This document shows positions 10,031-30,202 of a DNA stretch of 35,362 bases, one piece after another. The DNA is taken from assembly GCA_903847905.1 (NCBI GenBank), contig CAINEZ010000590.1, positions 1-35,362 of the forward strand. The letters run 5' to 3'. The number at the start of each line of letters is the position of its first letter. The first letter of the stretch is position 1. The notes under the pieces are model-generated. The model was not told the DNA's origin and searched no databases. It saw nothing but the letters and a program-made list of their open reading frames with translations. The stretch comes from an uncultured Bacteroidota bacterium (GTDB lineage: Bacteria; Bacteroidota; Bacteroidia; Bacteroidales; CG2-30-32-10). Made by a program: the position numbers and the translations under genes.

Positions 10031-11443
10031 GTGAAATCAAGGTCATCACAAACATTTCAAAACGACACAATATGTGCGGTAAGTACGCCTTTCGGGATTG
10101 GAGCTATTTCAATTATCCGCATTTCAGGGTCGGAAGCTTTTCAAATATGTAAAAAGATTTTTATACCTAATAAAAAAGCAGATATCTTAACAGCTACATC
10201 ACAATCTTTACACTTAGGGAAAATAGTTGGCAAAGACCTTTCAATTATTGATGAAGTACTGCTTGGAATTTTTAAGAATCCTTATTCATATACCGGTGAA
10301 GATATCGTTGAAATATCATGTCACGGATCTGTTTTTATCCAGGAACAGATAATTCAATTACTTATCAGGAATGGCGCAAGAGCTGCAAAGCCAGGAGAAT
10401 TTACAATGCGCGCATTTTTAAACGGGAAAATGGACCTTGCACAAGCCGAAGCTGTGGCTGACCTTATCTCTTCTAATTCAAACGCGGCACATAAACTGGC
10501 AATTCAACAAATGAAAGGTGGTTTTTCAACTCAAATTAAGTATTTACGAAATCAACTTATTGAGATCGCCTCATTGCTTGAACTTGAACTTGATTTTGGT
10601 GAAGAGGATGTTGAATTCGCTGACAGAGAAAAATTAAGTGACCTATTGAATAAAATAAAATCAGAGGTTTCGGCATTGCTGGAATCATATTCTTTAGGTA
10701 ATGTAATGAAAGCCGGAATACCTGTTGCAATTATCGGTAAGCCTAATGTTGGTAAATCAACGCTGCTGAATATCCTTTTAAATGAAGACAGGGCTATTGT
10801 GTCTGATATACCAGGAACAACAAGGGATGCAATTGAAGACTCGATAAATATTCAGGGTGTTTGCTTCAGGTTTATTGATACAGCAGGATTACGCGAAGCT
10901 AAGGGCAAGATAGAAAGTATGGGAGTTGAAAAAACTTACAAAAAAATTGCTTTAGCTTCTATTATACTTTATTTATTCGACATCAGTGAAAGCAGCATTG
11001 ATGAAATAAAGGACACTATGAAAAATTTTAAATCCTCAGATACTTATCATGATAAAAAAATTATTCTTATTGCAAATAAAACTGATAAACTTGTTGAATT
11101 ACCAAAAGAATTCAAAGATATCACAGAATATGATCCCATTTTTATAAGCGCTAAAAGAAGAGAGAATATTCAACTTATTACTGAAAGCCTGGTAAAATCT
11201 GTTGGTGAAATATATAATAACACGGAAGGAACAATTGTTACAAATTCCCGTCATTACGAAGCTCTACATAATTCAATGGGATCAATTACAGAAGCGATGA
11301 AAGGATTAAATGACGGTATTTCAAACGATCTTCTTGCAACTCATATCAAGTCGGCACTGCATTTCCTTGGCGAGATAACCGGTAATATTACAACAGAAGA
11401 AATATTAGATTCTATCTTTAGTAAGTTTTGTATAGGAAAGTAA
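10031..11443 (+). CDS. mnmE: tRNA uridine-5-carboxymethylaminomethyl modification GTPase MnmE
   Basis: All domains of MnmE/TrmE are present in 470 aa. The N-terminal formyl-THF-binding domain starts NDTICAVSTPFGIGAISIIR; a helical domain follows, with the inserted G domain (G1 GKPNVGKS at 236-243, G3 DTAG at 283-286, then NKTD) and the C-terminal FCIGK with its reactive Cys. With MnmG it builds the cmnm5U modification at wobble U34 of several tRNAs. No ATG precedes the conserved start, so the GTG at 10031 is used. The last codons form the likely attachment site of the island that follows; the gene is intact. Confidence 0.96.
   Translation: MKSRSSQTFQNDTICAVSTPFGIGAISIIRISGSEAFQICKKIFIPNKKADILTATSQSLHLGKIVGKDLSIIDEVLLGIFKNPYSYTGEDIVEISCHGSVFIQEQIIQLLIRNGARAAKPGEFTMRAFLNGKMDLAQAEAVADLISSNSNAAHKLAIQQMKGGFSTQIKYLRNQLIEIASLLELELDFGEEDVEFADREKLSDLLNKIKSEVSALLESYSLGNVMKAGIPVAIIGKPNVGKSTLLNILLNEDRAIVSDIPGTTRDAIEDSINIQGVCFRFIDTAGLREAKGKIESMGVEKTYKKIALASIILYLFDISESSIDEIKDTMKNFKSSDTYHDKKIILIANKTDKLVELPKEFKDITEYDPIFISAKRRENIQLITESLVKSVGEIYNNTEGTIVTNSRHYEALHNSMGSITEAMKGLNDGISNDLLATHIKSALHFLGEITGNITTEEILDSIFSKFCIGK
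11426..11443 (+). other. Putative attachment site of the island (3' end of mnmE)
   Basis: The last 18 bases of mnmE, TTTTGTATAGGAAAGTAA, encode the conserved end CIGK-stop. The equivalent 3' end of trmE/thdF is the known integration site of Salmonella genomic island 1; my recollection of that core differs at about three positions. An integrase gene begins 590 bp downstream and accessory genes follow. I did not find a second copy in the window, so the distal end would lie outside it or has diverged. Confidence 0.5.
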
Positions 11444-12032: not shown

Positions 12033-13139
12033 ATGAATGTAGCACTTCGCCAACGTAAGAAAAGCAATAAAATAAGCCTGTATCTCGACATTTACCATGA
12101 AGGAGTACGTAAATACGAATACCTTCAGTTGTATTTAACTCCCAAACCGAAAAAGGGAGCACTTACAAAAGAGCAAAAAGATGATAACAAAAAAACCTTT
12201 GATTTAGCTGATTCAATCCGTTCCAAGCGACAACTTGAATTGCAGAACGGCATCTATGGTATGCAGGATATGGCTAAAATGAAAGGTAGCTTTTTGAGGT
12301 ACTTTGAATATCTTACAGAAAAGAGGAAAGAGAGTATTGGTAATTATGGTAATTGGGATAGTGTTTTAAAACATCTTCGCAAATACGCTAAATTTGATAT
12401 TACCTTTCAACAGATTGATAAACGCTGGCTTGAAGGGTTCAAAGATTATTTAAAAGATGAAGCAAAAAAGCCCGGCAAACAGCAACTTGCTCAAAACTCG
12501 CAATCATCCTATTTTAATAAATTACGTGCGGCCATAAATCAGGCATATAAAGAAGGAATCATTCCCCGCAATCCGGTAGACGAAGTTGATTGTATCAGAT
12601 TAGGCGATACTGAAAGAGAATTTCTCACACTTGATGAAGTACAAGCCATTGTCAAAGCAGATTGTGAAATACCAATTTTGAAAACTGCATTTATTTTTAG
12701 CTGCCTGACAGGTTTAAGATGGTCAGATATTCAAAACCTTACTTGGAGTGATGTTCAACATTCAAATGAAATCGGGTATTATATCCGTTTCCGTCAGAAA
12801 AAAACAAAAGGCACGCAAACTCTTCCAATATCTGAACAAGCTTATAATCTCTTAGGTGAAAGGGGTAAACAACCAGATCGTGTTTTCATAGGATTAAAAT
12901 ATAGTGCATGGCATAATGTAAAGTTGCAAAATTGGGTAACACTTGCAGGTATTACAAAAACAATAACTTTTCATTGTGCAAGGCATACTTATGCAACTTT
13001 ACAGTTAACTTTGGGCACAGATATTTATACTGTTTCAAAGCTCTTAGGTCATAAAAGCCTTAAAAACACTCAGGTTTATGCAAAAGTAATTGATGAAAAG
13101 AAACGAGAAGCAGCTAACAAAATAATATTAGACTTATAA
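12033..13139 (+). CDS. Tyrosine recombinase (site-specific integrase)
   Basis: This 368-aa protein has an N-terminal SAM-like core-binding domain (residues ~85-185) and a C-terminal catalytic domain. The catalytic residues are visible: R229 in TGLRWSD, H314-x-x-R317 in FHCARHTYA, H340 in LLGHKSL and the nucleophile Y349 in TQVYAKV. It belongs to the family common on Bacteroidota integrative elements. It is the second gene after mnmE and probably catalysed insertion of the island at the 3' end of that gene. All catalytic positions are intact, so it may still be active. Confidence 0.95.
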   Translation: MNVALRQRKKSNKISLYLDIYHEGVRKYEYLQLYLTPKPKKGALTKEQKDDNKKTFDLADSIRSKRQLELQNGIYGMQDMAKMKGSFLRYFEYLTEKRKESIGNYGNWDSVLKHLRKYAKFDITFQQIDKRWLEGFKDYLKDEAKKPGKQQLAQNSQSSYFNKLRAAINQAYKEGIIPRNPVDEVDCIRLGDTEREFLTLDEVQAIVKADCEIPILKTAFIFSCLTGLRWSDIQNLTWSDVQHSNEIGYYIRFRQKKTKGTQTLPISEQAYNLLGERGKQPDRVFIGLKYSAWHNVKLQNWVTLAGITKTITFHCARHTYATLQLTLGTDIYTVSKLLGHKSLKNTQVYAKVIDEKKREAANKIILDL

Positions 13140-15380: not shown

Positions 15381-17615
15381 ATGTCAGAAACCGAAACTAC
15401 TACAGAAAAGGCTTGTTCCACTCTCTTTGCAGGTTTTAGCCAGCCTGTTGAAGACAAACCTCTGTTTGACATCCTAAAGGATATTCAACAGGAAAAATAC
15501 AAATCAGAAATTGAACCGATACGTTTGTACTTCAATCAGGGCAACGAAGATAAAGCAGACCAGTTAAAAAAATCACTGTCTGCTTTTACTCCGTCCGCTA
15601 CCTTTAAAGGTGGGCGTAAGCCTGAATTTTTAGTACAATACAGCGGTTTTGTACATCTTGATTTTGACAAACTACCTTCCGATAATCTCGAAAATATATT
15701 TCAGCAGGTAATCGGAATCCCTTTTACTTTTGCATGTTTCCGCAGCCCTCGTGGAAATGGGCTAAAGGTATTTATCAAAGTAATGACAGGTGCAGAACAA
15801 CATACCTTAACTTATAAGCAAGTGCAGGTGTATTATGAGAAAATACTGGGCATCGCTTCTGATAGTAAATGCAAAGATATAACACGCCTTTGCTTTGTTT
15901 CATCAGATAAAGACACTTTTATAAATCCGTCACCTCAGATTTTTATTTTTACAGAAACCGAATCCAATTTTTTTGAGAGTGCCGGACTACCTGAAAATAC
16001 TGATTACGTTACCATTTTTGAGCAGTGTAAGAAATTTACCGAAAACAAAGCATCTTATCTGAATGGAAACCGGAATAACTTTATTTATATGCTTGCTTCT
16101 AATTGCAATCGAAACGGTATTCCTGAATCCGAAGCCTTGCAGTTTATTCTCAGCAGTTACGATCTTTCAGAAAATGAATCACGCAACAGCGTAAAGAGTG
16201 CATATAATAATCACAGTTTTGAATATGCAAAGTTTCCTAAATCTGCAAACACCCAAATTTCAAAGGAAGAAGAAGCTACTGAAGATTATCTAAAGCAAAC
16301 ACCTTTCATTCCTGATGATATTTTCAACAATTTACCGGAGCTACTAAAGTCGGGTTGTTCAGCCTTTCAGGATAAACGGGAGCGTGATGTTTTTCTTACT
16401 GGTGCTTTAGGCATTCTTAGCGGTTGCCTTCCAAATGTAAAAGGTGTTTATGCACAGCAAACAGTGTTTCCGAATCTATTTTGTTTTATTATTGCACCTG
16501 CAGCAAGCGGAAAAGGTGCATTAAAATTTTCAAAAATGCTGGCAGATAAAGAACATTCAACCCTTTTGCAAATCAGCCGTGAAGATGTAAAATGTTATGA
16601 TACCGAAATGAACGAGTACAGGAACCGCCAACGTAGCAAAAAGAAAGGTGAAGAATCCGAAGACCCACCGACTCAGCCACCTTTTAAGGTATTGTTTATT
16701 CCCGCTAATTCCAGTTATGCTAAAATCCTTTGGCATATTGAGCAAAACGAGGGCGACGGGATTATATGCGAAACCGAAGCCGATACTATGGGCAACGTAT
16801 TAAAGCAAGATTGGGGCTCATATTCTGATATGCTTCGTAAAGCTTTTCATCACGAACGTTTGTCAAGTTCTAAAAAAGCAAATAACGAATATATTGAGGT
16901 TGATTCACCACGTTTGTCGGTTGCTCTTTCAGGCACGCCATCCCAAGTTACAGGGCTTATAGCTTCTTCCGAAGATGGTCTTTTCAGCCGTTTTTTGTTC
17001 TATGCTTTTAAAGTAGAGCAGCAATGGCGTGATGTTTCTCCCTATGCTTCTAAAATCAACCTTACAGAGCATTTTAATGAATTATCAGAAAGTGTTGTAA
17101 ATCTCATCATGTTTTTAAAACAGTCGCCCACCGAAATTGAATTATCAAAGGAACAATGGGATATACTCAACGCCTCATGTGGTCAGTGGTTAAAAGAGGT
17201 AGTTATTTTCAATGGTGAAGATTCAGCAAGCATTGTAAAGCGTCTGGGCATTATTCTTTATCGTATTGCTATGATTTTTACAGCCCTGCGTAAGTTTGAA
17301 AATGGGGAAACATCTGCAAATGTTACCTGTATGGATTCCGACTTTGAGGCAGCGCTGCAACTTGCTCAACTTTTTCTTGACCACAGCCTGTTTATGTTTC
17401 ACAACTTACCAAAGCAGGATCAGTTTAATGTTTTTCGTGGCGGTAGCAATAAACAGAAATTCTTTGAAGAACTTCCTAAGGTGTTTAAGCGTGCCGAAGC
17501 CATTGAAATTGGTAAACGTCATAAACTTTCCGTACGCACTGTCGACAACCTTTTAAAAACATTACTCGGCAAATATCTTTCTCAGGAAACCTACGGTACA
17601 TATTCAAAACAGTAA
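15381..17615 (+). CDS. BT4734-family (VirE N-terminal) primase/ATPase-like protein with DUF3987
   Basis: The N-terminal ~230 residues match the BT4734-like/VirE N-terminal domain: VHLDFDKL (~92-99) supplies a D-x-D pair and FRSPRGNGLKVFIKV (~120-134) a basic glycine loop, resembling primase-polymerase motifs. A spacer leads to a DUF3987-type P-loop ATPase region with APAASGKGA at about residues 371-379, CETEADTMG and LSGTPSQV further on. Such proteins sit next to the integrase on Bacteroidota integrative elements and are thought to help element DNA replication; the biochemical role is inference. The last ~60 residues carry another HTH-like part (KRAEAIEIGKRHKLSVRTVD). No relaxase or conjugation gene is present in the window, so transfer would need help in trans or genes beyond it. 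Confidence 0.85.
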   Translation: MSETETTTEKACSTLFAGFSQPVEDKPLFDILKDIQQEKYKSEIEPIRLYFNQGNEDKADQLKKSLSAFTPSATFKGGRKPEFLVQYSGFVHLDFDKLPSDNLENIFQQVIGIPFTFACFRSPRGNGLKVFIKVMTGAEQHTLTYKQVQVYYEKILGIASDSKCKDITRLCFVSSDKDTFINPSPQIFIFTETESNFFESAGLPENTDYVTIFEQCKKFTENKASYLNGNRNNFIYMLASNCNRNGIPESEALQFILSSYDLSENESRNSVKSAYNNHSFEYAKFPKSANTQISKEEEATEDYLKQTPFIPDDIFNNLPELLKSGCSAFQDKRERDVFLTGALGILSGCLPNVKGVYAQQTVFPNLFCFIIAPAASGKGALKFSKMLADKEHSTLLQISREDVKCYDTEMNEYRNRQRSKKKGEESEDPPTQPPFKVLFIPANSSYAKILWHIEQNEGDGIICETEADTMGNVLKQDWGSYSDMLRKAFHHERLSSSKKANNEYIEVDSPRLSVALSGTPSQVTGLIASSEDGLFSRFLFYAFKVEQQWRDVSPYASKINLTEHFNELSESVVNLIMFLKQSPTEIELSKEQWDILNASCGQWLKEVVIFNGEDSASIVKRLGIILYRIAMIFTALRKFENGETSANVTCMDSDFEAALQLAQLFLDHSLFMFHNLPKQDQFNVFRGGSNKQKFFEELPKVFKRAEAIEIGKRHKLSVRTVDNLLKTLLGKYLSQETYGTYSKQ

Positions 17616-17652
17616 TTTTACACCGTTTTTACACCCCTTTTAATTTTGTCAT

Positions 17653-17681
17653 AATTGCAAACTTTGCAGAGTTTGCAATTT
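17653..17681 (+). repeat. 28-bp hairpin built from iteron-like 9-bp units; possible terminator
   Basis: AATTGCAAACT (17653-17663) and AGTTTGCAATT (17670-17680) form a perfect 11-bp stem with a 6-nt loop, 37 bp after the primase-like gene, followed by a T-rich stretch. It could terminate that transcript. The same bases also read as 9-bp units TTGCAAACT, TTGCAGAGT, TTGCAATTT, matching the tandem units at 14007-14042. Confidence 0.55.
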
Positions 17682-17691
17682 GCATTTTTAT

Positions 17692-17753
17692 TTTGCTCAC
17701 AATTTAATTTATTTATATTTTTGACAAAATTGTCTAAATTTCAATGTCTATAT
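17692..17753 (+). promoter_or_regulatory. Promoter and operator of the defence cluster
   Basis: TTTG (17692-17695) and TATTTTTG (17716-17723) are separated by exactly 20 bp, a near-ideal Bacteroidota promoter; transcription should start near 17729. A small palindrome GACAA-AA-TTGTC (17723-17734) overlaps the -7 box and start point, and TGTCTA appears twice (17731-17736 and 17745-17750), 14 bp apart. These are good candidates for binding by the XRE protein encoded immediately downstream. Confidence 0.65.
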
Positions 17754-18042
17754 GAAAAGTAAAGATTTCGGCAACTATATTAAAACATTGCGTGAACAAA
17801 AAAACATTCCTCAGCGAATCGTGGCTCACAAGCTTGATATTGACACAAGCACTTTGTCTAAAATTGAATTAGGCGAAAGGCCGCTTACAATAGATATGAT
17901 ACCCGGTTTAGCTGAGATTTTAGAAATTGATTTTAAAAGTTTACAGATTAAATTTATTTCTGAAAAACTTCTTTCTGATTATAAAGGGCAACCTTACTTT
18001 GTTGAAGCAGTAAAAAAAATGTTAACGAATATCAAAAAATAA
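17752..18042 (+). CDS. XRE-family regulator of the restriction-modification cluster
   Basis: This 96-aa protein is a single Cro/C1-type helix-turn-helix domain: [20 protein letters not shown], followed by [14 protein letters not shown] and a leucine-rich third helix, then a ~30-residue tail ([20 protein letters not shown]). It is encoded 2 bp before hsdM, so it is translated with the methylase. Small XRE 'controller' proteins beside restriction-modification genes usually set the order of methylase and nuclease expression. The palindrome at its own promoter supports autoregulation. Whether it represses or activates cannot be read. Confidence 0.85.
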
Positions 18043-18044
18043 AA

Positions 18045-19619
18045 ATGGCTAAAAAGAACGATACAGAAGATACCCCTCTCGTGGTTAAGTTATGGCAGGC
18101 TGCTGATAAACTTCGTAAGAATATGGATGCTGCCGAATACAAGCATGTTGCTTTAGGCTTGGTATTCCTTAAATATATTTCCGATGCCTTTGAGGAACTC
18201 TACACAAAACTCAAAGAAAACAAAGGTGATTTTGAAGGAGCCGACCCCGAAGATAAAAACGAATACACAGCCGAAAAAGTTTTTTTTGTTCCTGCACAGG
18301 CTCGCTGGCAATATTTACAAGGCAGGGCAAAACTGCCAACTATCGGTAAAGATGTAGATACTGCAATGGATGCTGTCGAAAAAGATAATCCTTCATTAAG
18401 AGGTGTTTTACCTAAAGTGTATGCTCAGGAAAAACTCGACAAACAAAGTCTTGGTGGTTTAATTGATTTAATTGGAAGTGCTGCCATTGGAACAGCGGAA
18501 GCCCGCAGTAAAGATGTTCTCGGTAGCGTATATGAATATTTTCTTGGCGAATTTGCTTTAGCCGAAGGCAGAAAGGGTGGACAATTCTATACTCCTGCAA
18601 GTGTTGTAAGGCTTTTGGTACAAATGCTCGAACCTTATGAGGGTAGAGTATTCGACCCTTGCTGTGGTTCTGGTGGTATGTTTGTTCAAAGCGAGGATTT
18701 TATAAAACAGCATCGGGATTATTATAAGAAAAACAATGGAAACAAACTTTCAATCAATCCATCCGATCGCATTTCAATACATGGTCAGGAAAGCAACCAA
18801 ACTACATGGCGATTGTGTAAAATGAACCTTGCCATTCGTGGTATTGACAGCAGCAATGTAAAATGGAATAATGAAGGAAGTTTTTTAAACGATGCTCATA
18901 AAGATTTGAAAGCTGATTTTGTTTTGGCTAATCCCCCTTTCAACGACAGCGACTGGAGCGGTGATTTATTGCGTGATGATGCACGTTGGAGTGTGTTAGG
19001 TGCAAAACTACCACCACCGGCAGCAAATGCAAATTATGCGTGGATTCAGCACTTTATTTATCATCTATCGCCCACCGGTAAAGCAGGTTTTGTTTTAGCA
19101 AAGGGTTCATTAACTACCAAAACCAATAACGAGGGAGATATACGAAAAGCAATGATTGAAAATGATATGATTGATTGCATTGTAAACTTGCCTACAAAAT
19201 TATTTTTAAATACGCAGATTCCCGCTTGCTTATGGTTTGTAAGTAGAAAGAAAGAAAATAAAGGGAAAATACTTTTTATTGATGCCCGTAATATGGGATT
19301 TCTGGTAAATCGCAGAAACAGAGACCTTACTAAAGAGGATATTTCACTCATTGCAAATACATATCACAATTGGAGAACAAGTGATGCTGAATATAAAGAC
19401 GTACAGGGCTTTTGTAAATCGGCAACAACTGTTGAAGTAAAAGCATTAAATTATGTTCTTTCACCCGGCAGGTATATTGGTTTGCCCGATGATGAGGACG
19501 ATTTTAATTTTCCGGAAAGATTCAATGCTTTAAAAAAGGAATTAGAGCAACAGATGGAGGAAGAATCAAACCTTAATGAAGCTATAAAAAATAATCTTGC
19601 AAAAATCATAATTGAGTAA
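18045..19619 (+). CDS. hsdM: Type I restriction-modification system, DNA methyltransferase subunit HsdM
   Basis: This 524-aa N6-adenine methyltransferase has the HsdM N-terminal helical domain ([20 protein letters not shown]), the SAM-binding motif FDPCCGSGG at residues 203-211 and the catalytic NPPF at 296-299. The region [15 protein letters not shown] is typical of the family. With HsdS it methylates adenine in a bipartite site, and with HsdR it forms the restriction complex. Its length is normal and all motifs are intact. The next gene, 17 bp downstream, is not hsdS but a SIR2-like gene. Confidence 0.96.
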
Positions 19620-19636
19620 TTTAATTACAGTAAGCT

Positions 19637-20878
19637 ATGGCTAAAAAAATTACAATTTTAACAGGAGCTGGTTATACTTGCACAAGAGATTTTTCAGGTA
19701 TATCTACTGAATCATTAACAAATGAAATCCGAAATTTGGAGGTTTATGGTATCACCCTTGGAGGTTTAAAACCCGGCGAATATATTTATCGTAAATTATG
19801 CCAACATTATAATAACAATTCCCGTTCAATAAAAGCGGATATTGCAGTTGTCAATTTTGAAACCATTATTCATTTCTTAGAAGAATTTTATGCTTTCCAG
19901 GTATCAAAGCACAAAATTGCTGTTGTTGGCGGGAGAAAAAGAAAAATTAAAGGATATATGTTTAAAGGGGTTAAACCATCATTCTTGAAATTAAAAGATG
20001 AAGTAGAAAATGATTTTAAAAAGGCAACAGATAAACAATATGTTAAAGAGGCATATCTTTTAATTGCAAATATTTTCAAGGCGTTTATTAATCATATCAC
20101 ACATTCATTAGTATCATACAGCCTTGATTCAAATAATCAGGGAATGACTAACTTTAACGAAAATTTCTTAAAAAAATATTTACCTGATTCAAATTGGACT
20201 AAGAGAATTTACACACTAAATTATGATGATTGGATTTCGAGACACCTTAATTATTTTGACGGGTTTGATTCTTCAGGGAATATTCAAAGTGATGACATTC
20301 TAAATAATTTTGATATTAATTGCCACTACAATTTGCATGGTTGTGTTTTTTGGGAAACAACTATTGATAAAGAGAGAGTCACAAAATCAAATAAAGCAAT
20401 AGACCTTCTTGGGCGTGGTCAATCTTCAGATACCGGCATAGATAGAGAACCTTTAATTCCAACGCCAATAATTTCAGGTTACAATAAAATGCAACGAATG
20501 AAATTTAATCCATACATCCAACTTTATTATTCATTTCAAAGAGATATTATAGAATCTGAAATTGTCTTATTAATAGGCTATGGTTTTGGTGATACTCACA
20601 TAAATAATTTATTAAAACTTTGCAAAGGCAAGGTTGTTTTATGCAACTACCTTGAAGGTATGTTTGAAGGTAAAAAATACTACCTCAACCCATGGACAGA
20701 TCATACAGATGTTTTTATAAATATAATTACAAATTCATTTTGGGAAACTTTTCCACATGGTACAGGATTGCAAAAAAAAGAATGGTTTGAATCAAATTCT
20801 GACAGTGGTCGTATTCGTGTCTGGTGGCAAGGTATTGGAGATAAATTTTATAAAAATTGGAAAAAAATAATCGCTTAA
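19637..20878 (+). CDS. SIR2-like (predicted NAD-consuming) defence protein
   Basis: The 413-aa protein has the landmarks of the SIR2-like family found in antiphage systems: the NAD-binding glycine loop ILTGAGYT near residues 7-14, YTLNYDDWI (NYDD at 195-198), the histidine motif YNLHG (LHG at 233-235), and the late signature LLIGYGFGDTHINNLL (GYGFGD at 314-319). All expected catalytic positions are kept, so an NADase that kills or stalls the infected cell is the likeliest activity; this is inference from the family. The ~85 residues after the SIR2 core are too few for an APAZ domain, so it is not a SPARSA-type partner fusion. It lies between hsdM and hsdS, and its TAA overlaps the hsdS ATG. 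Confidence 0.85.
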   Translation: MAKKITILTGAGYTCTRDFSGISTESLTNEIRNLEVYGITLGGLKPGEYIYRKLCQHYNNNSRSIKADIAVVNFETIIHFLEEFYAFQVSKHKIAVVGGRKRKIKGYMFKGVKPSFLKLKDEVENDFKKATDKQYVKEAYLLIANIFKAFINHITHSLVSYSLDSNNQGMTNFNENFLKKYLPDSNWTKRIYTLNYDDWISRHLNYFDGFDSSGNIQSDDILNNFDINCHYNLHGCVFWETTIDKERVTKSNKAIDLLGRGQSSDTGIDREPLIPTPIISGYNKMQRMKFNPYIQLYYSFQRDIIESEIVLLIGYGFGDTHINNLLKLCKGKVVLCNYLEGMFEGKKYYLNPWTDHTDVFINIITNSFWETFPHGTGLQKKEWFESNSDSGRIRVWWQGIGDKFYKNWKKIIA

Positions 20879-22056
20879 TGAGTACTTGGAAAGAACATAA
20901 ATTCTCTGAAATAGTTGAGATAATTAAAGACGGTTATCAACCCGATGGCGTTACTGTCCTTAATTATATTGGACTTGATAACATCGAACAAGAAACATTA
21001 CGTTTAAATTCAATCGGAAAATCAACTGATGTAACAAGCAATAAATTCAAATTTAAAGCAAATGATGTTTTGTTTGGTAAACTTCGTTGCTATTTCAGAA
21101 AAGTTGTAAAACCTGATTTTGATGGTATTTGTTCTACTGATATATGGGTATGCAGAGCAAAGAAAGGTTTTAATCAAAATTTCCTTTTTTACTTTCTTGC
21201 AAATTGGGATTTTGTAAATACTGCTGATAGTGGTGAAGGAGGTACTCGTATGCCTCGTGCTGATTGGGAATTTTTAAAGAACACTGTTTGGAATACTCCC
21301 GACCTTCACACCCAAACCATCATTGCATTCATACTTTCAAACCTTGATGATAAAATTGATTTATTACACCGGCAAAATAAAACCCTTGAACAATTGGCAG
21401 AAACTCTGTTTAAGCAGTGGTTTTTTGAAGAAAATAAATCTGAAATTATAGTTCCTTTAAATGATTATGTTAATTGTATAAATGGTGTTTCATATAAAAG
21501 TTCTGAATTAAATCCTTCTAATACTGCTCTCGTTTCTCTTAAAAGTTTCAATAGATACGGAGGTTTTAATCTTGATGGCTTTAAAGATTTTACAGGAAGA
21601 TATAAGGAACAGCAAATTGTTTTAGAGGGTGATTTAGTTGTTGCACATACTGATATTACACAAGAGGCAGACGTTATCGGAAACCCAGCATTAATTATTT
21701 CAAGTCCAAAACATGAAACGCTTGTTATTTCTATGGACATGATAAAAGTTGTTCCAAAAGAGGACTGGATTTCAAAAGAGTTTTTATACTTCTTAATGCG
21801 TAGCCGTGAGTTTAAACATCATTGTTTGGGTTGTGCTAATGGTACAACAGTTTTACATTTAAGCAAAATAGCTACTCCTTCTTTTGAATTTGCAAAACCT
21901 GAAAAAGAAAAAGTAATTGCCTTTACACAACAAGCAAAAAAATTAGTCAATAAAATATTTATTAATCACAAAGAATTGTACAATTTAATTTCTTTACGTG
22001 ACACCCTTCTACCAAAATTAATGAACGGTGAAATAAAAGTAGATATGGCAGAATAA
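20878..22056 (+). CDS. hsdS: Type I restriction-modification system, specificity subunit HsdS
   Basis: HsdS reads the target sequence. The protein has two target-recognition domains, residues ~1-150 and ~190-350, each followed by a conserved helix: NLDDKIDLLHRQNKTLEQLA in the middle and LRDTLLPKLMNGEIKV at the end. An upstream TTG at 20857 is in frame, but the ATG at 20878 is preferred because it overlaps the SIR2 stop (TAATG) and begins MSTWKEHKFSEI, the normal start. Its own stop overlaps the next ATG in the same way. The recognised DNA site cannot be predicted by reading. Confidence 0.94.
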   Translation: MSTWKEHKFSEIVEIIKDGYQPDGVTVLNYIGLDNIEQETLRLNSIGKSTDVTSNKFKFKANDVLFGKLRCYFRKVVKPDFDGICSTDIWVCRAKKGFNQNFLFYFLANWDFVNTADSGEGGTRMPRADWEFLKNTVWNTPDLHTQTIIAFILSNLDDKIDLLHRQNKTLEQLAETLFKQWFFEENKSEIIVPLNDYVNCINGVSYKSSELNPSNTALVSLKSFNRYGGFNLDGFKDFTGRYKEQQIVLEGDLVVAHTDITQEADVIGNPALIISSPKHETLVISMDMIKVVPKEDWISKEFLYFLMRSREFKHHCLGCANGTTVLHLSKIATPSFEFAKPEKEKVIAFTQQAKKLVNKIFINHKELYNLISLRDTLLPKLMNGEIKVDMAE

Positions 22057-22706
22057 TGGAACATCTAAAAGCGATCATAGAACAATACAGCCGCTGGCAG
22101 CCTCTTGGTGAATATATCAAGCGTATTGAGGGCTACAGTAAAGATGATTTTTCTCTATGTGTCGAAAACTCCAAATCACTTTTAGAAAGCATTGCAAAAG
22201 AAATCTGCATTCTAAAAAACACAACCTATTCCGATAATGATAACCCAAGTAAATTACTAAAACTTGCTTTTGCCAGCTTAGGTTATTCCGAAAACGACAC
22301 ATTCAGGCAAATTGGTCAATCCATTGCAAATATTGGTCAGCAAATGGGAAAATTACGAAATGAAATTGGAAAAACCTCACATGGCAAACCTCTTGAAAAA
22401 TTAAATGAATACATCGAGACTGTAGATACTTTTACATCCGATTTTTTATTACAGTCTGTTGAACTGGTTGCTGTTTTTCTAATTCAGCTATTTGAAACAG
22501 GAAGCCCTCTAAGACCTGCAAATGAAACAGTTTTAGGGTATAACGACAATACCAATTTTAATGATTTTTGGGATGATCTTTACGGCGACTTTAATATGGA
22601 TGTATATACTTATTCTGCAAGTGAAATTCTTTACAATCTTGACCTAAACGCATACGAAACCGAATTAAACTCTTTTAAATTATTACCAGTTGAAGATGAA
22701 AAATAA
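22056..22706 (+). CDS. Abortive-infection protein with Abi_C-like domain
   Basis: This 216-aa protein carries the Abi_C ('abortive infection C-terminal') pattern: CVENSKSLLESIAKEI early, FRQIGQSIANIGQQMGKLRN in the middle and LRNEIGKTSHG at residues 99-110, then a helix with LLQSVELVAVFLIQLF. The R101-N102...H109 arrangement recalls HEPN-type RNases, but the spacing between R and H is one residue longer than I expect, so RNase activity is uncertain. The ATG overlaps the hsdS stop codon, giving translational coupling. No membrane anchor or signal is convincing. Confidence 0.75.
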   Translation: MEHLKAIIEQYSRWQPLGEYIKRIEGYSKDDFSLCVENSKSLLESIAKEICILKNTTYSDNDNPSKLLKLAFASLGYSENDTFRQIGQSIANIGQQMGKLRNEIGKTSHGKPLEKLNEYIETVDTFTSDFLLQSVELVAVFLIQLFETGSPLRPANETVLGYNDNTNFNDFWDDLYGDFNMDVYTYSASEILYNLDLNAYETELNSFKLLPVEDEK

Positions 22707-22736
22707 ATATTATGAATTTTTAAACTTTAATCATAA

Positions 22737-23405
22737 ATGAGCAAAACTTATAACATATATTGCGATGAAAGCACCCACCTGCAACACGATGGTATGCCTT
22801 ACATGATTATTGCTTATACCAGTACCGGCTATAACCAATTGAAGCAACACAACGAACATATAAAAATGCTTAGAGCAAAACATAAGTTTAAAGGTGAAAT
22901 AAAATGGAGCAGCGTTTCAAAATCACAATACCCTTTTTATTCCGATTTAGTTGAATATTTTTTTGCTACTGATATTAAATTTCGTGCTGTTATTGTTGAT
23001 AAATCCCAAATTGACGAAACAAGAGAAAATTTTAAGTATTCTGATTTTTATTTTCAAATGTATTACCAATTGTTGTTTCATAAAATTAACCCCGATTGCA
23101 AACATAATATTTACCTTGATGTAAAAGACACTTGCAGTCAGGGTAAATTAAAAAAATTAGCAGATATATTGAACCACAGTAAAGCAATCCGTAATCTTCA
23201 ATTTATCAAATCACACGAAAGCTACCTGATGCAACTTGCCGATTTAATTATGGGAGCAATTAATTATCATCTTAGGAAATTGAATACAGTTACAGCAAAA
23301 ACCAATCTGATAAAAAAGATTGAATCTCATACAAAAATTGAGCTTACCGAATCTACTCCTAAAAGTGCTGAAAAGTTTAACTTGTTTTTTATTGATCTAA
23401 AGTAG
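22737..23405 (+). CDS. DUF3800 domain protein
   Basis: The 222-aa protein matches DUF3800: an N-terminal strand with NIYCDES (D10, E11), KGEIKWSS (E54, K56), a central D128 in NIYLDVKD and LMQLADLIMGAI with D169 near the C-terminus. The spacing of acidic residues suggests an RNase H-like nuclease fold. DUF3800 proteins are frequent cargo of mobile elements and defence islands, with unknown activity. It begins 30 bp after the Abi gene and ends 7 bp before the BECR-like gene, so it may be functionally paired with that one. Confidence 0.85.
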   Translation: MSKTYNIYCDESTHLQHDGMPYMIIAYTSTGYNQLKQHNEHIKMLRAKHKFKGEIKWSSVSKSQYPFYSDLVEYFFATDIKFRAVIVDKSQIDETRENFKYSDFYFQMYYQLLFHKINPDCKHNIYLDVKDTCSQGKLKKLADILNHSKAIRNLQFIKSHESYLMQLADLIMGAINYHLRKLNTVTAKTNLIKKIESHTKIELTESTPKSAEKFNLFFIDLK

Positions 23406-23412
23406 AAAGAGT

Positions 23413-23952
23413 ATGCCAACGAACTTGTTAAAAAAATATCCTGAACTACTTGAGATAATGCACCTGTCCGAAAATCAGCGAACGGAATCACTTCGTAATA
23501 TTTTTAACAGAGATATTGAAAACAACCCTGATTTTAAATTTCGTACAAAACAAATCAGACCGGTTTTTATTGATGGTGCAGCAACTATGGGCAATTTGTT
23601 TAATCATCTTACCCGTGAAGAAATTGAAGAAGTAAAGCCGGACGGTACTAAATTTACAAAACGTATTTTTGAAAAAGACCGCTCAATGCGTTTACATTGG
23701 ATTAAATTCCATATTGAAGAACACAAAAAGGATAATGTTGAAATATTCAGCGTTATTGAGCGTGATTTCAAAAAGAGAAAGGATGTTACTATTACATACA
23801 TTTATGATTTGGAGCAGCAGTACGTAATAGTATTAGAACCACAAAACAGTGGTCGGGATTATTATTTGTTAAGCGCTTATTATTTGAATAGAGATTACGG
23901 AACTAAAAAAATGAAGAAGAAATTAAACAAAAAATTACCGGATGTGTATTAA
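23413..23952 (+). CDS. BECR-fold nuclease-like protein (barnase-EndoU-colicin-RelE type)
   Basis: The C-terminal ~95 residues of this 179-aa protein follow the pattern of the phage/polymorphic-toxin BECR nucleases: RSMRLHWIKFHIEEH (residues 90-104), then VTITYIYDLEQQYVIVLEP (125-143) and RDYYLLSAYYL (148-158) before a very basic tail. The N-terminal ~85 residues are charged and not recognised. This is a remote resemblance from strand pattern and the LLSAYY ending, not a firm family call. It could be a toxin-like RNase whose partner is the DUF3800 protein 7 bp upstream. Confidence 0.55.
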   Translation: MPTNLLKKYPELLEIMHLSENQRTESLRNIFNRDIENNPDFKFRTKQIRPVFIDGAATMGNLFNHLTREEIEEVKPDGTKFTKRIFEKDRSMRLHWIKFHIEEHKKDNVEIFSVIERDFKKRKDVTITYIYDLEQQYVIVLEPQNSGRDYYLLSAYYLNRDYGTKKMKKKLNKKLPDVY

Positions 23953-23959
23953 AACCGCA

Positions 23960-23991
23960 AGGCTCGGTATATATCTGGATATATCGAGCCT
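23960..23991. terminator. Strong palindrome between the BECR-like gene and hsdR
   Basis: AGGCTCG (23960-23966) pairs with CGAGCCT (23985-23991), and inside it ATATATC (23969-23975) pairs with GATATAT (23978-23984), so almost the whole 32 bp is self-complementary. There is no long T-run after it, so it may be an intrinsic terminator of weak type, an attenuator or a protein-binding site. It lies 8 bp after the stop in a 152-bp gap, the largest inside the defence cluster. Confidence 0.5.
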
Positions 23992-24104
23992 CGAAACTCC
24001 TTCTTCCTATTATGGAAAGATGAGCAGTACAAATGTACAACTATTTTTTTTTATATTTACAAACGTAAAGTGAAATATTTTTTAAATTACTGAAAAACAG
24101 CCAA

Positions 24105-27100
24105 ATGAAACCGGTAACAGAAGACAATATCGAGAAATTTGCAATAGAAGTATTGCAGTCGCTGGGTTGGGAGTACATTCCGGGCATTTCTATTGCTCCA
24201 GGTGCCGAATTAGCTGAAAGAGATACTTTCGGGCAAATTATCCTTGTAAATCGGCTTCGTAAAATCATAAAACGCATTAATTCCAATATTCCACCTGAAG
24301 CACAGGAACAGGCTATTCAAAAAATCCTTAGAATCTATTCACCCGATCTGCTCCATAACAACGAAGAATTTCAGGGGCATTTAATCGAGAAAGTGAAAAT
24401 CCCATATCAGCAGGATGGCTACGAACGAAGTCATGAAATTACCCTGATTGATTTTGAACACCCCGAAAATAATGAGTTTTTAGTAGTCAATCAGTTTACA
24501 GTAGTTGAAAACAACCAAAATAAACGCACTGATATTTTACTTTTCGTTAATGGAATCCCCCTTGTTGTTATTGAATTAAAAAATGCAACTGATGAAAACG
24601 CAACAATAAATAAAGCATTCGACCAAATTCAAACATACATATCTGTTATTCCAAGCCTCTTTATCTTTAATGCTTTTTGTGTTATTTCCGATGGTATGGA
24701 AGCACGGGCAGGCAGCCTTTCAGCCGATTTTAACCGTTATTCTGTTTGGAAAAGTGCTGATGGTAGCAAAGAGGCATCTCGTTTTATTCCGCAGCTTGAA
24801 ACACTTATAAAAGGAATGTTAACCCCTGCGGTATTACTTGATTTAACACGCAATTTCATTGTTTTTGAAAAGTCAAAAAAGGAAGACCCAAAAACAGGTA
24901 TTGCTCAATTTGTAACAGTAAAAAAACTTGCTGCCTATCATCAATATTATGCAGTAAATAAAGCGGTGCAATCTGCAATCATAGCATCAGGAAAAGACGG
25001 TAATAAAAAAGGCGGTGTGGTTTGGCATACGCAAGGTTCAGGTAAAAGTTTAAGCATGGTTTTTTATGCAGGAAAACTCATTACCGCTCCCGAAATGCAA
25101 AACCCTACTATCGTTGTTATTACCGACCGCAACGATTTAGACGAACAGCTTTTTGATACTTTTGCCGCTTCCGCTCAGCTACTCAGGCAAGTCCCTGTTC
25201 AGGCTGAAAACAGGGAACATCTTAAAGAATTACTAAAAGTTGCCAGTGGCGGAATAGTTTTTACAACTATTCAAAAGTTTTTACCTGATACCGGAAAAGT
25301 TGAATATGATTTGCTTTCAGAGCGTTCTAACATTGTTGTTATTGCCGATGAAGCGCACCGCACACAATACGGCTTTGAGGCTTCGCTCAAAGACATAAAA
25401 GATTCAGAAACAAAAGAAATTATTGGTAAACGTATTGCCTATGGCTTCGCCAAATATATGCGTGATGCTTTACCTAATGCCACTTATATAGGTTTTACAG
25501 GTACTCCCATTGAGGGAACCGATGTAAATACACCTGCTGTTTTTGGGCAGTATATTGATATTTACGACATTTCACAAGCTGTTGCCGATGGCTCAACAGT
25601 TCGCATTTATTACGAAAGCAGACTGGCAAAGGTAAATCTTGATGAAGAAGGTAAACGCCTGATTCAGGAATTTGACGACGAACTGGAAGAAGACGATGAA
25701 GTAACCGACAAACAAAGGGCAAAATCAAAATGGACTAAATTAGAGGCTATTGTTGGTAATAAAGATAGAATAAAAAACCTTGCAAAAGATATTGTATTTC
25801 ATTACGAACAAAGGCAAAGTGTTTTTGAAGGCAAAGCCATGATTGTAGCCATGAGCCGAAGAATTGCTGTTGATTTGTATAATGAAATAATTGCTTTAAA
25901 ATCCGAATGGAACAACGAAGATATTACAAAAGGAAGTATAAAAGTTGTAATGACTTCGCCGAGTTCCGATGGTCCTGTAATGCAAAAACATCATACAACT
26001 AAATTTCAACGTCGCTCTTTAGCCGACAGGTTTAAAGACCCTGCCGATAACCTGAAATTAGTAATTGTAGTTAATATGTGGCTTACCGGATTTGACGCCC
26101 CTTGCTTACATACTTTATATATTGATAAGCCTATGCGTGGTCATAATCTCATGCAGGCAATCGCAAGGGTAAATCGTGTTTTCAAAGATAAGCCCGGCGG
26201 TTTGGTAGTAGATTATTTGGGCATTGCAAGCGACTTAAAAGTTGCATTGTCATTTTATTCCAATGCTGGCGGTAGAGGTGAGCCAACATTAGACCAGAGC
26301 AAAGCAATTGAGGCAATGCTCGAAAAAATGGAAGTAGTACGCCAGATGTTCAATGAAGAAAGCAAAACGTATAAGGATATAATAGTTGAAGAACCTAAAG
26401 CATATTATGAAAATAGCACTGGCTTTAATTATAAACGTTTTTTTACCGGTGAAGCAATAGAAAAATTATCTATCATATTACAGGCAGAAGAACATATTTT
26501 GGGTTTACAGGACGGCAAAGCACGTTTTATAAGAGAAGTCTCATTATTAAGTCAGGCATTTGCCCTGTCAGTGCCTCACGAAAAAGCTATGGCAATAAAA
26601 GACGAGGTCGCATTCTTTCAGGCAGTAAAAGCCCGTCTCGTAAAATTTGAGGTTACAGGTAAAGGAAAATCCGATGCAGATATTGAAACAGCAATTAAAC
26701 AAATAATTGATGAAGCATTAAGTTCTGATAAAGTTGTGGACATCTTCGATGCTGCCGGTGTCGAAAAGCCTGAAATATCAGGCTTGGAAGTATTATCAGA
26801 AGAATTTTTACTCGAAGTAAAAGGCATGAAACATCAGAACCTTGCCCTTGAATTATTAAAGAAAATACTGAATGATGAAATAAAAACACGTGCTAAAACA
26901 AATCTTGTAAGAAGTAAGAAACTGCTCGAAATGCTTGAAGGTGCAATAAAAAAGTACCAGAATAATTTACTTTCAACCGCCGAAATTATTCAGGAATTAA
27001 TTGAAATAGCAAAAGAAATAAAAGCATCCGACAAGCGTAACGAAGAAATGGGATTAAAAGAAGATGAAATTGCTTTTTACGATGCACTCGAAACAAACGA

Positions 27101-27338
27101 CAGTGCAGTAAAAGTGTTAGGTGATGATACCTTGCGAATGATTGCCCAGGAAATTGCAGATAAGGTAAAAGCAAACGCAACTATTGACTGGACAATTCGG
27201 GAAAGTGCAAGAGCAAAATTAATGGTATTGGTTCGCCGGACACTCAATAAATATGGTTATCCGCCCGATAAACAGCAAAAAGCAATTGATACTGTATTAA
27301 AACAAGCTGAATTATTAGCGGATCATTTTACAAAGTAA
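24105..27338 (+). CDS. hsdR: Type I restriction-modification system, restriction/translocase subunit HsdR
   Basis: This 1077-aa HsdR begins with the PD-(D/E)xK nuclease domain: D143 in KRTDILLF, E157-L-K159 in VVIELKN and a QxxxY motif at Q174-Y178. The SF2 translocase motor follows, with Walker A GSGKS (311-315), DEAH (415-418), GFTGTPIEG and later VNMWLTGFDAP and the arginine motif QAIARVNR. The C-terminal ~300 residues are helical and serve assembly with HsdM/HsdS. It pumps DNA and cuts unmethylated foreign DNA. Length and motifs are normal, so the RM system appears functional although three unrelated genes separate hsdR from hsdS. The Argonaute gene begins 29 bp downstream. Confidence 0.95.
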   Translation: MKPVTEDNIEKFAIEVLQSLGWEYIPGISIAPGAELAERDTFGQIILVNRLRKIIKRINSNIPPEAQEQAIQKILRIYSPDLLHNNEEFQGHLIEKVKIPYQQDGYERSHEITLIDFEHPENNEFLVVNQFTVVENNQNKRTDILLFVNGIPLVVIELKNATDENATINKAFDQIQTYISVIPSLFIFNAFCVISDGMEARAGSLSADFNRYSVWKSADGSKEASRFIPQLETLIKGMLTPAVLLDLTRNFIVFEKSKKEDPKTGIAQFVTVKKLAAYHQYYAVNKAVQSAIIASGKDGNKKGGVVWHTQGSGKSLSMVFYAGKLITAPEMQNPTIVVITDRNDLDEQLFDTFAASAQLLRQVPVQAENREHLKELLKVASGGIVFTTIQKFLPDTGKVEYDLLSERSNIVVIADEAHRTQYGFEASLKDIKDSETKEIIGKRIAYGFAKYMRDALPNATYIGFTGTPIEGTDVNTPAVFGQYIDIYDISQAVADGSTVRIYYESRLAKVNLDEEGKRLIQEFDDELEEDDEVTDKQRAKSKWTKLEAIVGNKDRIKNLAKDIVFHYEQRQSVFEGKAMIVAMSRRIAVDLYNEIIALKSEWNNEDITKGSIKVVMTSPSSDGPVMQKHHTTKFQRRSLADRFKDPADNLKLVIVVNMWLTGFDAPCLHTLYIDKPMRGHNLMQAIARVNRVFKDKPGGLVVDYLGIASDLKVALSFYSNAGGRGEPTLDQSKAIEAMLEKMEVVRQMFNEESKTYKDIIVEEPKAYYENSTGFNYKRFFTGEAIEKLSIILQAEEHILGLQDGKARFIREVSLLSQAFALSVPHEKAMAIKDEVAFFQAVKARLVKFEVTGKGKSDADIETAIKQIIDEALSSDKVVDIFDAAGVEKPEISGLEVLSEEFLLEVKGMKHQNLALELLKKILNDEIKTRAKTNLVRSKKLLEMLEGAIKKYQNNLLSTAEIIQELIEIAKEIKASDKRNEEMGLKEDEIAFYDALETNDSAVKVLGDDTLRMIAQEIADKVKANATIDWTIRESARAKLMVLVRRTLNKYGYPPDKQQKAIDTVLKQAELLADHFTK

Positions 27339-27367
27339 TTTTTATATGATAATTTAATTTTTTCAGA

Positions 27368-29443
27368 ATGGAGCAAAATTTACAAATTAACATTATCCCA
27401 TTTCCACTGCCTGTTATCTCAGCAGAATTTCCGTTTTACAAAAATAAAATAGATGGTTATTGCCCAATTCATAAAGGAGATTTAAAAGGAGTAATTGAAA
27501 ATCATTTTTCAAGTGAAGAATTAAACCAAATACAATGGCTTTACACCGACTTTGAAACACCCAAAGAGAATGCTCTAATTTTTAACGTGGATTTATCTAA
27601 GAATATTTATTTTGCAAACCATTACCACCGCTTTCTTATACGTTCATATTTCAATGAAATTGCAGATGTAATCAATAACAATTTTACAAATGAAATTGAG
27701 GTGTGGTTCAAAGCCCCGCAGCAGCCGAATAAGCAATTTACAATATACAATCTGTTTACGCTGAAAGCGCAATTTGCACGAATAACCGATATTCCGGAAT
27801 TAGTCGTTTCATTCGATGGTACTACAAAAGTATTGAATCAAAGCCTTAAAGATTTAACCAACTTCCCAACGGATCAATTCAACTGGGTAAAATATGGTAA
27901 ACAATTGCATCGTTATAAATACATGCCTATTGAATTTAAGCAAGACTTGGATTTGATTTTTCCGGTACTTACCAATAAACTGAAACCACAATTCAATATT
28001 GTTTTCGATAAACCTTCTTTCGACAATCGTTATCCTAAATACAAAAAAATACTTGATGCTTTCTATAACGAACATTTGAATAATGATTCGTTCCGGTCAT
28101 ACATTCCAATATCAGAAGATGGCTATTTGCAAGTATCAGCAGAAAAAACGCTAATGATAAGCGAAGGTTCTAACCAGCTTCTTTTTGGTAAAGATCAAAA
28201 AGGTGATGACCCTAAAAAAGATGTTTTAAAACTTGGGCCTCATAAACCTGCTAAAAGTAACAATGTCCTTTTCTTTTTTATTTTTCAGAAAAGTGACAGA
28301 AAACCCCATGTAGAAAATCTCTACAATTATTTCATCAAAGGATATAAAATTAAAAAAGAAACTGGCGAAGAAATCCAGCTTTTCCCTGATATAGGAACAT
28401 ACATAAAGCAACCTTTCCACATTGACCCTGATGATAGCATTTCTTTTGATTCTCTCGATAATGCTGTGGAAATAGTTGATAAAACTATTCGTAATAAAAC
28501 ATTTCTTCCCGATACGCAATACATTGCAATTTATGTTAGTCCTATTCCAAAAACAGAAACAAACAATCCGAATCACAATGTTTATTATCGCATTAAAGAA
28601 CTTTTATTAAATCATGGTATAACGTCTCAGGTGGTAAATAAGAAAAACATTTCAAATCCAAAATTCAACTTTTTTTTACCAAACATAGAAATTGCAATCC
28701 TTGCAAAGTTAGGTGGTGTACCTTGGCGTTTAAACCGTGCTCTAACTTCTGAACTTATTGTCGGCATTGGAGCTTTTTACTCCTCTAAACGTAATTCAAA
28801 GTATCTGGCAAGTGCATTCTGTTTTAACAATGAAGGTATTTTTGATAATTTCGATTGTTTTCTGTCAAACGACACAGATACCCTTGCAGGTTCTATCCGT
28901 AAGGCTGTCCTTAAATTTTTGGTAGATCATGAACACGCAGACCGCATTATTATTCATTTTTACAAGGACATCAGTAAAAAGGAAATGGAACCAATAGTAA
29001 ATACATTGCATAAATTAGGTTTACCAATTCCTGTTATCATTGTTACTATAAATAAAACGGAAAGTAAAGAACTGCTTGCTTTTGATATTGCAGATGACAA
29101 CCTAATGCCCTATAGTGGTACAATTATCAACGTAAGCAAGAATGAATATCTTTTGTTCAATAATACTCGCTATACTAAAACAAGCAGAGTTACAAACAAA
29201 GAATATCATTTTCCTATAAAAATTGCTTTTGCATCATCAAAACCCGAAATACTGGAAGATTCCAATTTAATCAAAGAACTTACAGACCAGGTATATCAGT
29301 TTAGCCGGATGTATTGGAAAAGCATCGGTCAGCAAAGTTTGCCGGTAACAATTTGTTACCCTGAAATGGTTGCGGAAATATTCCCTAACTTTGAATCCGA
29401 CAGCCTACCACCATTTGGACAAAAAAATTTATGGTTTTTATAA
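27368..29443 (+). CDS. Prokaryotic Argonaute (long type, apparently catalytically inactive PIWI)
   Basis: The 691-aa size fits a long pAgo. The MID domain shows YYRIK (406-410), Q421 and AILAKLGGVPW (443-453), the pocket expected to bind a 5'-phosphorylated guide. The PIWI domain spans ~460-691, with VGIG (465-468), IIIHFYKDISKKE, IPVIIVTINKTES, SGTIINVSKNEYLLFNNTRY and the end QVYQFSRMYWKS, PPFGQKNLWFL. In slicing pAgos the first catalytic Asp sits where G468 is found here, and the usual 'RDG' around the third Asp reads FYKD, so target cleavage is unlikely. The N-terminal ~300 residues fit N/L1/L2 regions; a full PAZ domain is not evident by eye. It is the last gene of the cluster, 29 bp after hsdR, and needs an effector; the SIR2-like protein or HsdR are candidates. 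Confidence 0.85.
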   Translation: MEQNLQINIIPFPLPVISAEFPFYKNKIDGYCPIHKGDLKGVIENHFSSEELNQIQWLYTDFETPKENALIFNVDLSKNIYFANHYHRFLIRSYFNEIADVINNNFTNEIEVWFKAPQQPNKQFTIYNLFTLKAQFARITDIPELVVSFDGTTKVLNQSLKDLTNFPTDQFNWVKYGKQLHRYKYMPIEFKQDLDLIFPVLTNKLKPQFNIVFDKPSFDNRYPKYKKILDAFYNEHLNNDSFRSYIPISEDGYLQVSAEKTLMISEGSNQLLFGKDQKGDDPKKDVLKLGPHKPAKSNNVLFFFIFQKSDRKPHVENLYNYFIKGYKIKKETGEEIQLFPDIGTYIKQPFHIDPDDSISFDSLDNAVEIVDKTIRNKTFLPDTQYIAIYVSPIPKTETNNPNHNVYYRIKELLLNHGITSQVVNKKNISNPKFNFFLPNIEIAILAKLGGVPWRLNRALTSELIVGIGAFYSSKRNSKYLASAFCFNNEGIFDNFDCFLSNDTDTLAGSIRKAVLKFLVDHEHADRIIIHFYKDISKKEMEPIVNTLHKLGLPIPVIIVTINKTESKELLAFDIADDNLMPYSGTIINVSKNEYLLFNNTRYTKTSRVTNKEYHFPIKIAFASSKPEILEDSNLIKELTDQVYQFSRMYWKSIGQQSLPVTICYPEMVAEIFPNFESDSLPPFGQKNLWFL

Positions 29444-29470
29444 AAGCCAGTTACGCTTATATAAAATTTT

Positions 29471-30202
29471 CTACTCAAATAATAATATTTGAAATTCGCC
29501 TTGTTGTACACCAACCCAATCATAATATATATCTTTTTTAGTAATTCGGAATCCATATTGTGGTCCAATGTAAGTTGGGCTATTTTTTTTCCCCGCAAAA
29601 TCCCAACCCATAAGCAAAATTCTTCCTTTTGTATTAAGATATTTTCTGGCTTCTTTAAAAAATCGTATTTGTAATTCTTCCGAATCAAACATTCCACGTG
29701 TAAACTCATAACCGGAAATTGGTTTCCCTGAAAAATAAGGTTGTGCAAAAACAATTAAATCATATATTTTTTTGCTTTTAATAGTGTCGAATAAATCAGA
29801 CATCTCAATTTTTCCTTTATTTTCCAACCCCGCTTTATGGAGATTATTTTTAGCACATTTGCATGCTGCCTGCATAATATCTGTAAAAACAACTGATTCT
29901 GCACCACCTAATAAACAGACAATTCCTTGAATTCCACATCCAGTACCAATATCAAGTACTTTCTTGTTTCTGTAGAGATCAGTATTTGACCAAAGCCATT
30001 TTGCGAGCCCTTTTGAACTCATGGGTCGGGTTACATCAGGCATAATATCCATATGAAGTGTGATGACACTATTTAGCTGTACATTTTCAAATGGAGGCGC
30101 ATCCATATGATATTGAATCTGCCGTAATATTTGTGCTTTCTGTTTCTCATTTAATAGAGATAATGAATCTTTAGTATTAATCACTTTCTTTTTATTTTTC
30201 AT
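29471..30202 (-). CDS. SAM-dependent methyltransferase of the MTS/HemK-like class
   Basis: The 243-aa protein has a class I methyltransferase core: KVLDIGTGCGIQGI (motif I, D84-G93), an acidic residue after strand 2 in VVFTDIM, and VFAQPYFSG where N6/N5-methylases have NPPY. Here the Asn is Ala and the first Pro is Gln, so the usual amide or adenine methylation is doubtful. The N-terminal ~70 residues resemble the small domain of PrmC-type enzymes (LHMDIMPDVTRP). It is the last gene of the minus-strand ABC transporter operon, starting 14 bp after the ATPase stop, so it may modify the transported compound or a derivative. It is convergent with the Argonaute gene, 27 bp apart. Confidence 0.78.
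   Translation of the reverse strand: MKNKKKVINTKDSLSLLNEKQKAQILRQIQYHMDAPPFENVQLNSVITLHMDIMPDVTRPMSSKGLAKWLWSNTDLYRNKKVLDIGTGCGIQGIVCLLGGAESVVFTDIMQAACKCAKNNLHKAGLENKGKIEMSDLFDTIKSKKIYDLIVFAQPYFSGKPISGYEFTRGMFDSEELQIRFFKEARKYLNTKGRILLMGWDFAGKKNSPTYIGPQYGFRITKKDIYYDWVGVQQGEFQILLFE

Follow-up and report, generated by a model that had tools for sequence, protein, structure and literature searches.

A gene for a protein with a SIR2_2 domain lies between hsdM and hsdS of a type I restriction-modification operon in an uncultured member of the Bacteroidales. The stretch of DNA that we analysed (35,362 nucleotides, hereafter the window) is an entire contig, CAINEZ010000590.1, of a 704-contig assembly, GCA_903847905.1. 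The first-pass annotation had put the gene at this position, and searches of the flanking genes against Pfam and PADLOC confirmed it. The reading that we prefer, and to which we give about an even chance of being right, is that the protein is a self-sufficient NADase serving as an abortive-infection effector and carried as co-expressed cargo. An NADase of the SIR2_2 fold would have been gained between hsdM and hsdS of a Bacteroidales type I operon on an mnmE-associated island. It would share transcription, and probably translation, with these two genes, and a cell making the methylase would then also carry a suicide effector. The protein most likely senses infection alone, like other single-gene SIR2 defence proteins; when a phage is not stopped by restriction, it would deplete NAD+ and the cell would stop.

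The SIR2 protein and its operon

The SIR2 reading frame is intact and encodes 413 amino acids. All the motifs listed for it in the first-pass annotation are present, namely the N-terminal TGAG glycine loop, TLNYDD (N195), YNLHG (H234) and IGYGFGD, and neither of the catalytic residues, Asn195 and His234, varies among the 39 aligned family members. The score against the Pfam family SIR2_2 (PF13289) lies above the curated threshold (26.0 bits, cut-off 24.5, E=1.1e-5), and PADLOC ranks Aga_SIR2 at the top (3.6e-14), with generic SIR2 families next. The annotated lack of an APAZ domain likewise stands, as no APAZ model of Pfam or PADLOC matched the protein and about 80 residues are all that remains C-terminal to the SIR2 core. 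When the structure model (mean pLDDT 76.6, pTM 0.81) was compared with the PDB using Foldseek, the matches were weak and led by Sir2 deacetylases (best E 0.037), and a phmmer search of the PDB with the protein found nothing. The fold is thus assigned mainly from sequence motifs, and, because of the weak match to known SIR2 structures, it is from these motifs that NADase activity is predicted.

The gene belongs to an array with the order XRE, hsdM, SIR2, hsdS, Abi_C, PDC-M04A (DUF3800), PDC-M04B, hsdR and pAgo (table 1). It is separated by 17 nt from hsdM and, on the other side, its TAA stop overlaps the ATG of hsdS by one base (TAATG, 20876-20880), all three genes being on the same strand. On account of this overlap, the likely start of hsdS is the ATG at 20878 and not the TTG at 20857 where the mechanically called reading frame begins; an overlap of the same kind joins hsdS to the Abi_C gene. 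A one-base overlap between hsdM and hsdS is accompanied by translational coupling in EcoKI (PMC3510504); the gene directly upstream of hsdS is hsdM there, whereas it is SIR2 in the window. Given its tight packing in the hsd operon, SIR2 is probably expressed together with hsdM and hsdS, in line with the tie to the modification genes that had been proposed initially. A Bacteroides-type promoter match precedes the array and no further full match of this type occurs on the plus strand between it and SIR2, although the match is weak evidence because the window contains many of this kind. Scans for sigma-70-type promoters and for terminators gave results at background level, and an Rfam search returned no match.

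Two other features of the operon may be recorded here. An inverted repeat, GCTCGGTATATATC...GATATATCGAGC, lies in the gap between PDC-M04B and hsdR (23953-24104), with a T-rich stretch after it. DUF3800 genes resembling PDC-M04A, found in the window within the PDC-M04A/B stretch (22737-23952), recur within type I operons at L145, L155, L161 and L229, several of them just upstream of hsdR.

Table 1. Positions of the genes and of the promoter-like match discussed in the text (window coordinates).
Feature	Coordinates	Strand	Basis of assignment
mnmE, chromosomal flank, likely island insertion site	10031..11443	+	
Tyrosine integrase of island	12033..13139	+	Sequence; homologues in related islands
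VirE/DUF3987 gene, island backbone	15381..17615	+	Pfam DUF3987, BT4734-like_N
Promoter-like match, Bacteroides-type (TTG...TAttTTTG), upstream of operon, before XRE	17693..17723	+	Consensus only
Small XRE-type HTH gene, first gene of array	17752..18042	+	
hsdM, type I DNA methylase subunit	18045..19619	+	Pfam N6_Mtase 5.9e-105, HsdM_N
SIR2_2-domain protein, predicted NADase (N195, H234)	19637..20878	+	Pfam SIR2_2, PADLOC, invariant catalytic residues
hsdS, specificity subunit	20878..22056	+	Methylase_S; likely ATG start, TAATG junction
Abi_C-domain protein	22056..22706	+	Pfam Abi_C 3.1e-7
DUF3800 protein, PDC-M04A	22737..23405	+	Pfam, PADLOC
PDC-M04B	23413..23952	+	PADLOC
hsdR, restriction subunit	24105..27338	+	HSDR_N, SWI2_SNF2, T1RH-like_C
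pAgo, long-form, predicted catalytically dead	27368..29443	+	Piwi; catalytic positions; full-length Ago fold

Cargo in the hsdM-hsdS gap and the SIR2 family

Two surveys around relatives of hsdM, in which 80 loci were fetched, yielded 31 and 37 loci with both hsdM and hsdS scorable, the window and two loci found via SIR2 being left out of the count. At least one same-strand ORF of at least 100 amino acids lies between the two genes in 22 of the 31 and 28 of the 37, that is 50/68 (74%), a proportion that does not stand for 68 independent events because several second-survey loci are near-copies from a single genus (g240) and some short ORFs may be due to chance. The cargo that could be identified comprises RhuM, SLFN AlbA_2, Fic, DUF3800, YhcG nuclease, ORF6N, DUF1828/1829, REase-ARP and an integrase. 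Where cargo is absent, the two genes overlap or almost abut in the majority of relatives. In type I operons of Bacteroidota, the space between hsdM and hsdS is a heavily used cargo slot where new defence genes may be sought. A survey of type I loci for SIR2 at this position, proposed in the first-pass annotation, found it there in none of the 68, while a SIR2-HerA pair is located between hsdS and hsdR of one window-related type I operon (L154; 7158-10227 in the coordinates of the reversed locus). Since the slot mostly holds unrelated accessory genes in the relatives, the SIR2 protein makes better sense as a backup expressed along with the operon than as a sensor dedicated to failed restriction.

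Single-sequence searches of genome contigs and viral contigs recovered no SIR2 relatives, and a plasmid search with the single sequence gave weak, partial matches only; an alignment-based search found 39 loci of the family, nearly all from Bacteroidota. The nearest relative (L066) is 43% identical over nearly the full length and is encoded by a lone gene, with a divergent Peptidase_S15 gene on one side and a convergent AIPR gene on the other. As residues 4-413 of the window protein align with this lone relative, the former has no extra Hsd-binding domain. Neighbours of the next four relatives (L067, L068, L069 and L136) include genes for TIR-like, second SIR2, FRG and caspase proteins. No match to hsd or pAgo seeds was detected in the fetched flanks of any of the five, the upstream context being short in L066 and L068, both of which lie near contig ends.

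Restriction genes do adjoin other members of the family: type I or related N6-methylase genes (L072, L073, L092, L071), type IIG-like genes (L076, L086, L104), a type ISP gene (L081) and an Mrr gene (L088), the reading frames often overlapping in the IIG, ISP and Mrr cases. A restriction gene is found within 2 kb in 10 of 44 SIR2 loci, the window included, but beside 0 of 74 background genes of similar size drawn from arbitrary regions (Fisher p=2.5e-5, uncorrected for clustering in defence islands and with some restriction seeds derived from those same loci). This enrichment, together with the overlapping frames, hints at a functional linkage beyond chance cargo, with a single SIR2 subfamily recurring next to restriction enzymes of different types. 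On a tree of 33 members, the restriction label changes 8 times, compared with 8.7 for shuffled labels, which points to repeated gain or loss of the linkage and fits modular capture, not an inherited SIR2-restriction partnership. In a separate SIR2 clade, three of the four members adjoin type I genes.

These data bear on what might set the protein off. The Hsd complex might keep the NADase silent, and release would come once a phage anti-restriction factor inhibits or eliminates the type I enzyme, in the way that Stp releases PrrC in EcoprrI. We regard such a guard as possible, though rather unlikely. In its favour are the embedding of SIR2 within the hsdM-hsdS pair and its coupling to these genes, the recurrence of the family beside several restriction types, the type I-adjoining clade, the precedent of PrrC and the coupling proposed by Makarova et al. 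(PMC3506569). It is weakened by the five nearest relatives, none with detected hsd genes nearby, by the unrelated cargo that fills the slot in most loci, and by the lack of any Hsd-specific domain relative to the lone L066 protein. A narrower version, which we consider doubtful, holds that this NADase family has time and again been put to use as an alarm signalling the failure of restriction enzymes of several types, the window SIR2 being a translationally coupled guard of a type I methylase; if true, it would amount to the logic of PrrC with NAD+ depletion as the output. Another suggestion, that SIR2 is a recently acquired passenger with no defence role here, or that it acts in another process, would agree with its occurrence in the hsdM-hsdS slot at one locus only, but it sits badly with the intact reading frame, the complete set of catalytic residues and the tight operon packing, and strikes us as quite improbable. 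We retain the self-sufficient, co-expressed effector as the preferred reading. Of the initial proposal of a restriction-linked effector, the catalytic residues, the absence of APAZ and the tight packing hold up, and the trigger does not: restriction subversion or loss of HsdM/HsdS is unsupported as written, the slot being a general one that holds SIR2 in no other surveyed locus, and the nearest relatives being without detected hsd genes nearby.

The mobile island and its Argonaute

Upstream of the array are mnmE, a tyrosine integrase gene, an RteC-like gene, two HTH genes and the VirE/DUF3987 gene, and the array is located on an mnmE-associated Bacteroidales mobile island. A duplicated 3' end of mnmE was searched for as a right attachment site, and no repeat was found. 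Related pAgo genes follow parts of the same backbone at L047, L051, L200, L201, L203 and L204, with pAgo coming after VirE and no hsd genes in between at L047; the XRE-type HTH gene also occurs upstream of hsd or pAgo at L051, L201 and L204. Altogether, the pAgo clade recurs with parts of the integrase/HTH/VirE/XRE backbone, and of 17 relatives 8 have type I genes nearby. Short pieces of pAgo in L058 (8770-9158, directly downstream of mnmE) and L061 (612-866) suggest decayed islands. Because pAgo relatives share the backbone and L047 has no hsd genes, pAgo would be part of the backbone of the island, with the hsd operon and its SIR2 gene as cargo. Relatives of the Abi_C-domain gene are found at L166, L231 and L243. 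At L166, a type I operon lies directly downstream of mnmE and a phage-integrase-family gene separates hsdM from several hsdS pieces, a layout resembling specificity-shuffling loci.

The model of the window pAgo shows a full-length Ago fold with RsAgo as the best bacterial structural match. Its catalytic positions are substituted (VGIG, HFYK), which, given the DEDX tetrad, we take to be inactivating. An inactive long-B Ago and an APAZ-free SIR2_2 protein (bAgaS) make up the BPAS systems (PMC10620215), and in GbBPAS the SIR2 protein is toxic alone, Ago suppresses the toxicity and NAD+ drops in the presence of an invading plasmid (PMC10620215). A long, predicted dead pAgo and an APAZ-free SIR2_2 protein, the components of BPAS, are likewise present in the window, where Aga_SIR2 is moreover the top PADLOC match, and one may imagine a dispersed BPAS in which the dead pAgo, bound to guide RNA, recognises invader DNA and activates the SIR2 NADase in trans. 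We nevertheless judge this improbable, and BPAS membership was rejected. Five genes separate SIR2 from pAgo, their co-occurrence is not conserved (a SIR2 gene is near just one of the 17 pAgo-clade relatives, L049, and there it is paired with HerA), no pAgo was detected near the nearest SIR2 relatives, and the sampled pAgo-adjacent SIR2s (L016, L018, L059, L060) form a clade separate from the window SIR2. That the dead long pAgo is island backbone and rarely travels with SIR2 argues against such a pair, and the L047 pAgo, following the backbone without hsd cargo, weakens the case for an inherited one further. SPARSA was likewise rejected, because the window pAgo is of the long form and the SIR2 protein has no APAZ. 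At L016 and L018, a short-form pAgo comes after a type I operon and the SIR2 adjacent to it belongs to another clade; L016 additionally carries a predicted pPIWI-associated nuclease. Ryazansky et al. (2018) list HsdS among proteins of pAgo operons (PMC6299218).

Comparison with known systems

Two further defence systems were considered for the window and rejected. Thoeris finds no counterpart, as none of the ten genes scanned (15381-30202) matched TIR, the domain of its ThsB partner, or SLOG, which the SIR2 protein would carry. The Sir2-HerA pair shares a SIR2_2 effector with the window and is embedded in a type I operon at L154, but the neighbours of the window SIR2 on both sides are hsdM and hsdS, and no HerA gene was identified in the window. 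Variable inserted ORFs have been described in type I loci of Campylobacter (PMC2610378), among them, as cited there from Miller 2005, the rlo genes of Campylobacter jejuni hsd loci; these are alike in being variable ORFs within type I loci and differ in the genes and the phylum concerned.

The presence of Sir2 genes in type I loci is already known. Makarova et al. (2012) linked Sir2-superfamily enzymes to type I restriction-modification systems and to pAgo, and proposed that immunity components restrain the associated toxins, as in PrrC (PMC3506569). The window agrees with that association, for which coupling was proposed, and what we document beyond it concerns one subfamily, its place in the hsdM-hsdS slot and its relatives outside hsd loci. 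In the literature searched, mostly without subscription journals, we found no paper treating SIR2, hsdM and hsdS together. As in the EcoprrI type IC locus with PrrC, a predicted suicide effector is embedded in a type I hsd operon; unlike PrrC, it is a SIR2 protein (a predicted NADase) and not an anticodon nuclease, it sits between hsdM and hsdS, and its association with hsd genes is not conserved among its nearest relatives. The window thereby offers a concrete case of the proposed coupling of restriction immunity to cell suicide, with a predicted NADase in the place of the anticodon nuclease PrrC.
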